From Candidatus Hydrogenedentota bacterium (lineage in GTDB: Bacteria > Hydrogenedentota > Hydrogenedentia > Hydrogenedentales > JAEUWI01): a DNA stretch of 64,000 bases. The stretch is taken from assembly GCA_016791475.1 (NCBI GenBank), contig JAEUWI010000024.1, forward strand, positions 1 to 64,000. Direction: 5' to 3'. Shown here one piece after another: positions 7,379 to 45,028 of this stretch (within the stretch, counting starts at the first letter, position 1; every line of letters starts with the position of its first letter). The notes under the pieces were generated by a model. The model had not been told where the DNA came from and ran no database searches. It was given only the letters and a program-made list of their open reading frames with translations. The translations under genes were made by a program, and so were the position numbers.

Positions 7379-7530
7379 AACGATGAACGCACTCCATTAA
7401 CCAAATCGGAACGGCTCGCCGCGCTCGGGGCCAATACCCCGGATGGCAGCGAAAAACGCCCCCACTCCTCGGACCTGAAGATTAGCACACAAGCCGGCGG
7501 AACGCCAACCGCCGCGCGGGACAACAACGC

Positions 7531-7556
7531 AGCCCGGCGGGTGGGTCCGCCGGGCT
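7531..7556 (-). terminator. Hairpin downstream of the lipoprotein gene
   Basis: A perfect ten-base stem (AGCCCGGCGG at 7531-7540 with CCGCCGGGCT at 7547-7556) encloses a six-base loop. It lies about 30 bases past the stop of the leftward lipoprotein gene. The sequence after it on the minus strand is only moderately U-rich (GCGTTGTTGT), so it is a plausible but not classic terminator. Confidence 0.55.
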
Positions 7557-7587
7557 GAAATAACGTGTTGTTCTTGAACGGCGGCGA

Positions 7588-41788: not shown

Positions 41789-42205
41789 TCAGTGCACCCG
41801 GTCCTGATTCGTTGGGACCGGGTTTTTGCTTTCTCCCGCGAGCGCATAGGTCACCACGGACAACAATTCCGCAATCTGGAATGGCTTCGTCAGGGTGGCG
41901 CAGGCCCCGAAGCGACGCGCCAGATCAATGAAACCCTCTGGGGCCGTGAGGTCGCGGCTTCCCCCCGACATGGCGATCACCGGCAACTCGGGAAACTCCA
42001 TGCACAACTCGCGGATGGTGCTCATGCCCTCTTTATGGGGCATAAAGATATCGGTTATCACCAGATCCGCCGGACTGCGGCGCTGGAGGTGTATTCCCGA
42101 CTCGCCCTCCGGTGCCTCCAGGACTTCGTGCCCCTGATCCTCCAGGACTTCTCGAATTGTCTGCCGCATTGCATAGTGGTCATCGATGACTATAATACGG
42201 GCCAT
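41789..42205 (-). CDS. Single-domain response regulator (CheY-like)
   Basis: This 138-residue receiver domain has the acidic pair in IVIDDHYAM, the phosphoacceptor Asp in DLVITDIFMP and the conserved Lys in LTKPFQIAELL. There is no output domain. No cognate kinase is adjacent; the hybrid kinase at 59.9 kb is far away. Its 3' end overlaps the terminator of the convergent small-peptide gene. Confidence 0.93.
   Translation of the reverse strand: MARIIVIDDHYAMRQTIREVLEDQGHEVLEAPEGESGIHLQRRSPADLVITDIFMPHKEGMSTIRELCMEFPELPVIAMSGGSRDLTAPEGFIDLARRFGACATLTKPFQIAELLSVVTYALAGESKNPVPTNQDRVH
41797..41827 (+). terminator. Terminator after the small membrane peptide gene
   Basis: The stem CCCGGTCC (41797-41804) pairs with GGACCGGG (41815-41822) and is followed by five T. 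It lies within the 3' end of the convergent receiver gene. Confidence 0.85.
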
Positions 42206-42386: not shown

Positions 42387-42392
42387 TATACT
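42387..42392 (+). promoter_or_regulatory. -10 element of RNA element 1
   Basis: TATACT lies eight bases before the first paired base of element 1 (42400), the expected distance to a start site. No convincing -35 box is present at 16-18 bases, so the promoter may be weak or use an extended or alternative element. Confidence 0.45.
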
Positions 42393-42399
42393 TTCGATT

Positions 42400-42526
42400 G
42401 TAGGCTCGTACAGTTGAATGACTCTTCGGAGTCAACAGCTCCCTCACTTTGGCAAGCCCCCTGCCAAAAATGAGCCTACCTGCCGCAGCCCGCCGAGGTG
42501 CCCCCCTCGGCGGGCGCTTCCTTTTT
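42400..42526 (+). ncRNA. Structured RNA element, copy 1 (three-way junction plus terminator)
   Basis: The closing stem P1 pairs GTAGGCTC (42400-42407) with GAGCCTAC (42472-42479). Inside, P2 is GACTC-TTCG-GAGTC (42420-42433), extended by GTT/AAC across a GAAT bulge. P3 is TTTGGCA/TGCCAAA (42448-42454 with 42462-42468) with the C-rich loop AGCCCCC. The linker between P2 and P3 is CAGCTCCCTCAC. A separate 11-base hairpin (42488-42515), C-rich in its loop, is followed by five T. The C-rich unpaired segments could pair with Shine-Dalgarno sequences. A similar copy lies at 42771. I match it to no known riboswitch or small-RNA family. Confidence 0.75.
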
Positions 42527-42734
42527 GGGCGCACCCCAAGGGCAAGCCCCACGACGGGTTGGCGCACGCGTGTGGCATACCAGTATAACACGCCTGCCGG
42601 GCCGGCTGGGGAGCAATTTTGATGTGCTTTTTCTTTCCCATGAGCCCGCACTCGCCCCAAAATGGGACAAGCGCATGCAATAAACCCAATAAAATCAATC
42701 AGATACAGAATTTCAAAATTTTTGTAATTTTCGC

Positions 42735-42764
42735 TTTACATTACCCTCCCGAATAGTGCATACT
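42735..42764 (+). promoter_or_regulatory. Promoter of RNA element 2
   Basis: TTTACA (42735-42740) and CATACT (42759-42764), 18 bases apart, place a start site at about 42771, the first paired base of element 2. This makes the second element an independent transcription unit or the leader of gpsA. Confidence 0.65.
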
Positions 42765-42770
42765 ATGGAC

Positions 42771-42896
42771 GTAGGCTCGTACAGTTGAATGACTCTTCGG
42801 AGTCAGCAGCTCCCTCAATTTGGCAAGCCCCCTGCCAAAAAGAGCCTACCTGCCGCAGCCCGTCGAGGTGCCCCCCTCGGCGGGCGCTTTATTTTT
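42771..42896 (+). ncRNA. Structured RNA element, copy 2 (upstream of gpsA)
   Basis: This is a near-identical second copy. P1 is 42771-42778 with 42842-42849, P2 is 42791-42804, and P3 is 42819-42825 with 42833-42839, again with loop AGCCCCC. The terminator hairpin is 42858-42868 with 42875-42885, followed by T-rich sequence. The few differences from copy 1 fall in linkers or keep pairing as G-U wobbles: C to T in the terminator stem opposite G, and A to G in the P2 extension opposite T. It ends about 110 bases before gpsA, so it may be a separate small RNA or a transcription-attenuating leader. Confidence 0.75.
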
Positions 42897-43004
42897 GGAC
42901 GGTCCGGAGCTGGCCCGTTTGAACCATCCGGCGGGCCTTTGCTAGGGTACGCGGGCCCATCGCGGCGTCTTGCAGCAGCACCATCCAGGGATCTAGTGAC
43001 GACC

Positions 43005-43976
43005 ATGCAAATTCAAGTCATCGGTGGCGGAAGTTGGGGCCTCGCCCTGACCCGCGTCCTCGCATTGAACAATCAGAATGTCCAACTCTGGTGTCGGCCC
43101 GAAGATGATCCCGACACCCTGCGCGCCACCCGGGAAAGCAAGAAATTCCTTCCGGGGGTCTTGCTGCCGCCCGAAGTCGTCATTGCCCCCGAGGTGAACG
43201 CGGCCGCCGACATGGTGGTCTATGCGGTCCCCTCCCACGCCATGCGCAGCGTGGTTCCCCAGTTTCTCTTTACCCATAATCCCGTACGGGTCAGTGTGGC
43301 CAAGGGCATTGAGAACGACACGCTCCTGCGGATGAGCGAGATTATTGCCGCACTCGCGCCTGGAAGCCCCGTGGTGGCCCTTTCCGGCCCCAGCCATGCG
43401 GAGGAGGTGGGGCGCGGCCTTCCGGCGTCGCTCGTGGCCGCAAGCGCGGACGAAGACGCCTGCAAGATGGTTCAGGAGGCTTTTTTCTGCTCGAACTTCC
43501 GGGTCTATACGAGCCCGGATATCATCGGCGTGGAACTGGGCGGCTCCTTGAAGAACGTGGTCGCCATCGCGGCGGGCGTCTGCGACGGACTGGGGCTGGG
43601 CGACAACGCCAAGTCAGCCCTGATCACCCGGGGCCTCGCGGAGATCGCGCGGCTGGGAAGCGCCTGCGGCGCCAATCCCCTTACGTTTGCCGGGCTCAGC
43701 GGCATGGGCGATCTCATTACGACCTGTACCAGCCGTCATTCGCGGAATCGGGCCGTAGGCGAAGCGATCGCCCAGGGCAAGAAGCTCCAGGATATTCTCG
43801 ACAGCAGCCCGATGGTGGCGGAAGGCGTTCGCACAACACGCTCGGCCCATGCGCTGGCCCTCAAGATGGGCGTCGAAATGCCGTTGACCGACGTGGCCCA
43901 TCAGGTCTTGTTTGAGGATCTGCCCGCCCGCGAGGCGATTGAAACGCTCATGGCGCGGGAGGCGAAGGCGGAATAA
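43005..43976 (+). CDS. gpsA: Glycerol-3-phosphate dehydrogenase [NAD(P)+]
   Basis: This 323-residue enzyme reduces dihydroxyacetone phosphate to sn-glycerol 3-phosphate for phospholipid backbones. VIGGGSWGLALTRVLA is the NAD(P) loop, LSGPSHAEEV and ELGGSLKNVVAIAAGVCDGL (with the catalytic Lys) are diagnostic, and the C-terminal GMGDLITTCTSRHSRN is standard. I start at the ATG at 43005. No ribosome-binding site is evident. It lies just after RNA element 2, which may control it. Confidence 0.96.
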   Translation: MQIQVIGGGSWGLALTRVLALNNQNVQLWCRPEDDPDTLRATRESKKFLPGVLLPPEVVIAPEVNAAADMVVYAVPSHAMRSVVPQFLFTHNPVRVSVAKGIENDTLLRMSEIIAALAPGSPVVALSGPSHAEEVGRGLPASLVAASADEDACKMVQEAFFCSNFRVYTSPDIIGVELGGSLKNVVAIAAGVCDGLGLGDNAKSALITRGLAEIARLGSACGANPLTFAGLSGMGDLITTCTSRHSRNRAVGEAIAQGKKLQDILDSSPMVAEGVRTTRSAHALALKMGVEMPLTDVAHQVLFEDLPAREAIETLMAREAKAE

Positions 43977-44039: not shown

Positions 44040-44639
44040 TCAAAGCGCTCGGGGGCGATTGATCTTGGTGTGAGGCAGGGCGAAGAGTTGCTCCACGCGC
44101 AGCGCCAGCTCATCAATGTGGAAGGGTTTCTTCAGGAAATCATCGAAGCCGAAGGTCACCAGTTCCTGGATCTCCTCTTCCTCAATGAACCCGGAAATGC
44201 CCAGGATCCGCGTGTTGCGCGTCTCCATGCGGGATTTCACGCGCTCGCAGACCATCCGGCCATCCATGTCGGACAAGTGAATATCCAGAATCACCAGTTG
44301 AGGATTGTGTTCCACAACGATGGCGCCGGCGTCGAATCCGGTGGATGCGGTCAGCACGAGGTACTCTTCCCCTCGGGCGAGAACCGAAGGAATAATGTCG
44401 AGGTAATAGGGGTCGTCATCGACAACGAGGACGCGCCGCTCACCTTCTTCGAGGCGTTCCAGCGGGATGCCATGGCTGAGCATGAACTTCCGGAGGTTAT
44501 CGTAGGGGATGCGGCGATCACCGCCGGGCCCGAGACGATACCCTTCGATCTGACCAAGATCGAACCAGCGAGAGACCGTGTCCGCGGATACTCCGCAGAT
44601 GGCGGCGACTTCGCCCGTCGTGAATACTCTGTTTTTCAT
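44040..44639 (-). CDS. Response regulator with N-terminal excisionase-type DNA-binding domain
   Basis: This 199-residue protein has a helix-turn-helix of the excisionase/MerR-like type at its N-terminus (FTTGEVAAICGVSADTVSRW, about 6-50) and a receiver domain after it (about 70-190). The receiver has VLVVDDDPYYLDI, the phosphoacceptor in LVILDIHLSD and the Lys in LKKPFHIDEL. DNA-binding first and receiver second reverses the common order. The start is the ATG at 44639 (MKNRVF); upstream frame residues are not family-like. No kinase is adjacent. Confidence 0.88.
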   Translation of the reverse strand: MKNRVFTTGEVAAICGVSADTVSRWFDLGQIEGYRLGPGGDRRIPYDNLRKFMLSHGIPLERLEEGERRVLVVDDDPYYLDIIPSVLARGEEYLVLTASTGFDAGAIVVEHNPQLVILDIHLSDMDGRMVCERVKSRMETRNTRILGISGFIEEEEIQELVTFGFDDFLKKPFHIDELALRVEQLFALPHTKINRPRAL

Positions 44640-45028
44640 GAGCCCACCCTCGCTCTCCCCTCCAATGAAACGGCCATCCCGAGCTCGCAGCCACGCTGCG
44701 GGGGCGATCCGCAATACTGGGTCACCGCGCGCTTCGATGCCGGTGATCCGATGAAAGCTCCCCGCGTCAGCAGCCAGAAAGCAACGTCTCCGCCTGTCAG
44801 GCGGTGTGAATTCATTGCCGTTTCCTCCGCGAGGACCGCTCTATGGTATCGTTTCGAGGTACAAAAACGCAAACTTAGCGCCTGCGCGCTATTGCGGTGT
44901 CCGATTCTGATGCCGCGTGGAAAATCCCCCTTGATCTTTCGGGGGACACTACATATAATTAGACACCTAACAGTTTTGCGTCTATCTTAACCGTCTGCCT
45001 GCCAGGGCTCTACAGGGTATTGATCGCC
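44640..45028. other. Divergent intergenic region
   Basis: It lies between the leftward regulator and the rightward desaturase. The segment 44935-44990 is AT-rich and probably holds the desaturase promoter. No gene is supported. Confidence 0.45.

Follow-up and report, generated by a model that had tools for sequence, protein, structure and literature searches.

A tandem pair of structured candidate small RNAs with C-rich loops upstream of gpsA in a genus of Hydrogenedentota

Introduction

Small RNAs that offer several C-rich sequences for pairing have been described in other bacterial groups. In Listeria monocytogenes, LhrC1-5 are multicopy sibling sRNAs with three C-rich sites, one each in a hairpin loop, in a single strand and in the terminator loop, all of which can bind target mRNA (PMC4132741). 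The ar14 (NfeR1) RNAs of alphaproteobacteria use C-rich motifs to block ribosome binding sites, and the definition of the ar14 family requires an ultraconserved CCUCCUCCC in all three hairpins (PMC10746234).

Here we describe two RNA elements of comparable design, located in a stretch of 64,000 nucleotides (the window) of a hydrogenedentote genome. The features of the locus are collected in Table 1.

Structure of the two copies

The two copies are 95% identical and measure 127 and 126 nt. The preliminary description had placed two elements of about 127 bases 371 bases apart, which agrees with the distance from start to start, the intervening gap being 244 nt. Each copy is predicted to fold into a three-way junction, closed by stem P1 and bearing the inner hairpins P2 and P3, with the terminator as a hairpin of its own; this fold, proposed earlier, is borne out by comparison with dinucleotide shuffles (z -6.0 for copy 1 and -5.7 for copy 2). 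The three-way junction alone gives z values of -5.5 and -4.7, and none of the shuffles folds equally well.

In both copies the predicted P2 loop is of the UUCG type, the P3 loop is GCCCCC and the terminator loop GCCCCCC. In the junction stretch of copy 1, CCCTCA is predicted to be single-stranded and the leading CT closes P2. These three C-rich segments are invariant among the eight copies that were found in the genus, and are mostly unpaired by prediction. The differences between the window copies lie in linkers or the U-tract, or change C-G to U-G in the terminator stem, as had been claimed.

Table 1 Features of the tandem locus (positions in the window)
Feature	Position	Strand	Basis or remark
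Candidate sRNA copy 1 (P1-P2-P3 three-way junction and terminator)	42400..42526	+	alignment, folding
Candidate sRNA copy 2	42771..42896	+	alignment, folding
P1 5' strand GTAGGCTC, copy 1	42400..42407	+	pairs with 42472-42479
P1 3' strand GAGCCTAC, copy 1	42472..42479	+	pairs with 42400-42407
Junction C-rich stretch CTCCCTCA, copy 1	42439..42446	+	invariant 8/8
Junction C-rich stretch CTCCCTCA, copy 2	42810..42817	+	invariant 8/8
P3 loop GCCCCC, copy 1	42456..42461	+	invariant 8/8
P3 loop GCCCCC, copy 2	42827..42832	+	invariant 8/8
Terminator hairpin, copy 1	42488..42515	+	loop GCCCCCC at 42500-42506
Terminator hairpin, copy 2	42858..42885	+	loop GCCCCCC at 42870-42876
-10-like box TATACT, copy 1	42387..42392	+	copy 1 upstream regions aligned, 4 genomes
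Sigma-70-like promoter TTTACA-18-CATACT, copy 2	42735..42764	+	promoter scan of window
gpsA, NAD-dependent glycerol-3-phosphate dehydrogenase	43005..43976	+	conserved downstream neighbour
Stand-alone response-regulator receiver protein	41789..42205	-	divergent neighbour, 4/4 genomes

Distribution and conservation

In a DNA search of 100 genomes, full copies were found only in four genomes of the genus, always as a tandem pair, and a covariance-model search of 68 genomes of the order again confined them to these four congeners. A model search extended to 386 genomes, some of them drawn from across the domain, gave no further convincing copy. Matches in four other genomes (G204, G044, G008 and G022) were not counted, as they are coding-like sequence or a generic terminator only, and the terminator-only BLAST look-alikes that were inspected are not copies. 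A weak model match in the window (7487-7572 on the minus strand, E 0.1) is a strong GC-rich hairpin and appears to be an unrelated terminator.

In each of the four congeners the pair is flanked by the divergent receiver-domain gene, whose start codon is some 180-200 nt from copy 1, and by gpsA. The gpsA gene of another genus in the family is preceded by a different gene and lacks the element. Across species the copies are 89-97% identical (n=8), as compared to 72-74% for gpsA DNA, and the flanking spacers and inter-copy gaps are about as alike as shuffled sequences. No variation occurs among the eight copies in P1, the CUCCCUCA junction, either GCCCCC loop or the linker CCUGCCGCAGCCCG. Within this set a single pair, in P2, has changed on both sides, from A-U to G-C; the remaining differences at paired positions are mostly wobble-compatible. 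Protein coding was set aside because of single-base indels between copies.

More divergent sequences add to this picture. A compact third paralog, present in one species only (L045:1501-1587, minus strand, which is G002:C156:4597-4683), was found by BLASTN through the primary sequence of its linker and terminator alone (E 5e-9). It is devoid of P2, whereas P1, P3 and the terminator are retained, with some seven compensatory changes that affect both sides of a pair; a promoter-like TTGCTT-17-TATAAC, read by eye, precedes its first G. An RNA-like, apparently intergenic sequence from another family of the order (L040:1501-1597, minus strand, which is G013:C31:10044-10140; strong fold, z -8.1) resembles the copies in P1 and in its terminator loop, GCCCCC, and has a long C-rich loop. 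Its homology is unproven at an E value of 0.005 with model R1, being one genome among 68, and its higher score with model R2 is circular, since R2 was built including it. With both sequences added, 12 pairs show two-sided changes (shuffles, 1.8; slid controls, 0-2), a count that represents an upper view because the alignment was made to fit the model and the second sequence is uncertain. The occurrence at a fixed locus in four of four congeners and the presence of compensatory changes sustain the earlier claim of a structured RNA with selection on its fold.

The U-tract of copy 1, CTTCCTTTT, is similar in the four species and unlike that of copy 2, which indicates that the copies probably arose by duplication before the species diverged. 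The copy bodies differ at 5-9 positions between siblings within a species and at 8-16 positions between like copies of different species; this closer likeness within species suggests, from small numbers, gene conversion between sibling copies.

Pairing capacity of the C-rich segments

It had been proposed that the C-rich loops could bind Shine-Dalgarno (SD) sequences, and this can be upheld for the junction segment but not for the GCCCCC loops. Using 501 genes from 864 kb of the same genome (simple codon model), we found GGGAG, the complement of junction CUCCC, in 38 start regions and 8 controls, whereas GGGGGC, the complement of the P3 and terminator loops, occurred in 2 start regions and 5 controls. 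The 16S end of a congener is GGATCACCTCCTTTCT. Pairing runs of at least 7 with the junction segment numbered 14 at the start regions, as compared to 7 upstream and 6.0 for shuffled segments; for the two GCCCCC loops there was no clear excess at the start regions of the 501 genes. Since GGGAG is enriched and GGGGGC is not, the junction could be an anti-SD toward some of the genes; the GCCCCC loops probably do something more specific. A search for individual targets yielded GGGAG start sites, none of which survived a conservation check. Of the candidates that were set aside, sufC has its site within the end of sufB, where the overlap confounds the result, and an OmpA-like gene is without clear orthologs.

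That the two invariant loops share GCCCCC and fail to match generic SD sequences may also be taken to mean that the RNA binds a protein, as a sponge or scaffold, instead of acting as an antisense RNA. Protein-titrating RNAs also occur in multiple copies, as these elements do. We nevertheless consider protein binding rather unlikely: the junction CUCCC does match SD-like sequences, the loops have no known protein partner, and GGA motifs of the CsrA type are absent from loops, the one of the junction domain lying within the P2 stem. A CsrA sponge was set aside.

Promoters, terminators and the relation to gpsA

The alignment of the regions upstream of copy 1 from four genomes revealed a conserved T-rich region, TTTTTGTCATACTTTCTACATA, ahead of the TATACT box, which itself sits 7 nt ahead of the invariant first G. 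This promoter-like region was overlooked in the preliminary description, which credited copy 2 with a promoter of its own; the latter does match by sequence pattern and ends 6 nt ahead of the first base. The same arrangement was read by eye for copy 2 of genome G001, and in all eight copies the invariant GTAGG is preceded, at 6-7 nt, by a -10-like box. Every copy is closed by a terminator hairpin, as scored in the window copies. The copies are thus organized like intrinsically terminated sRNA genes, each with a promoter, recognized by pattern and conservation only, and a rho-independent terminator. In contrast to copy 2, copy 1 has a CC within its U-tract (42516-42526; also L003, L004 and L027) in all four species, which might permit read-through toward copy 2.

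The position upstream of gpsA in four of four genomes, and the combination of a three-way junction with a terminator, which is a frequent riboswitch layout, could also suggest tandem cis-regulatory leaders of gpsA (riboswitch or attenuator) with the junction as aptamer. This is very unlikely for several reasons. With a promoter-like box for each copy, copy 1 would be the leader of copy 2. An alternative pairing that disrupts the terminator was not found, the best competing duplexes reaching -13.8 and -15.3 kcal/mol versus -26.9 kcal/mol (one sequence, simple duplex energies). Furthermore, the terminator shows no variation in its loop and hardly any in its stem, the compact paralog follows an HNH-nuclease-like gene instead of preceding gpsA, and a promoter-like TTGAAC-18-TAGGGT 3' of copy 2 seems to belong to gpsA itself (read by eye; unscored by the promoter scan). 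The gpsA gene is probably not part of the RNA element.

An open frame on the plus strand (42789-43976) spans copy 2 and continues into gpsA, and automatic annotation may for this reason place the gpsA start too early. The upstream extension of the frame differs among species and is broken by indels; the start was taken as 43005. Beyond gpsA, at 44040-44714 on the minus strand, lies a gene for an HTH_17/MerR-like protein with a receiver domain, a homolog of which adjoins gpsA in genome G003; this protein is a possible candidate regulator of the sRNAs.

A DNA-level repeat family or mobile element, which two near-identical neighbouring copies and one paralog elsewhere in one species might bring to mind, is so improbable that it can be dismissed: the pair occupies one fixed locus in the four genomes, with conserved promoters and compensatory changes, and the sole match in viral_contigs (L031) covers 17 bases and is due to chance.

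Comparison with known regulatory RNAs

The elements very probably represent a real and new sRNA family, two-copy and at the level of a genus. With moderate confidence, we regard the copies as independent monocistronic genes for trans-acting sibling sRNAs of about 125 nt that pair through their C-rich segments. The RNAs would use the junction CUCCCUC and/or the two GCCCCC loops to pair with G-rich stretches of mRNA, with repression of translation of the target mRNAs as the main outcome, and having two copies would permit more of the RNA to be made and each copy to be induced differently. No Hfq was detected in any of the four congeners, whereas control genomes expected to have it gave matches, so pairing would require another chaperone or none. 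There is a small chance that the twin GCCCCC loops instead recognize a partner other than a ribosome binding site, either a protein or one dedicated RNA, and would form a new kind of regulator in a lineage in which Hfq was not detected.

For the sibling antisense RNAs that we favour, the relation to described families can be judged from Rfam. At gathering score, the only match in the window is a tRNA and there is none for the copies, in line with the earlier statement that no known family was recognized; permissive searches gave sub-threshold matches or none. The best of these by bits is Rhizobiales-2 (RF01723; 26.2 and 20.4 bits, E 0.7 and 6.1, gathering score 40), which has a terminator-like stem with a UGUCCCC loop that aligns with the terminator of the copies, whereas its first domain matches weakly. 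The ar14 family (RF02344) scores 17.3 and 16.2 bits, far below its gathering score of 58.8, and its ultraconserved motif is absent from all eight copies, although both kinds of RNA carry several unpaired C-rich motifs in successive hairpins. Among Rfam matches to E 10 there is no LhrC family, for which Rfam 15 may hold no model, and sequence similarity to LhrC is absent. By design, the copies would fall among the C-rich-loop regulators, and common descent with any such RNA is unsupported.

The likeness in layout is closest to LhrC. LhrC is also multicopy, and in LhrC as in the predicted structure of the copies three redundant C-rich sites are spread over a loop, an unpaired strand and the loop of the terminator. 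A two-component system controls LhrC, and the copies adjoin a receiver-domain gene. There are differences too: the LhrC sites read CUCCC(...)UUUU, whereas two of the three in the copies are GCCCCC; LhrC is described as stem-loops, whereas the copies have a three-way junction; and LhrC binds Hfq, which is dispensable for lapB, whereas the genus studied here is without detectable Hfq. By analogy, the mechanism is likely LhrC/ar14-like antisense pairing via junction, hairpin loop and terminator loop. The locus adds a well-supported candidate sRNA family of conserved structure, without a counterpart in Rfam, from a genus apparently devoid of Hfq, with sibling bodies more alike within species than between, and it would be a separate instance of the three-site C-rich design described in Listeria and rhizobia.
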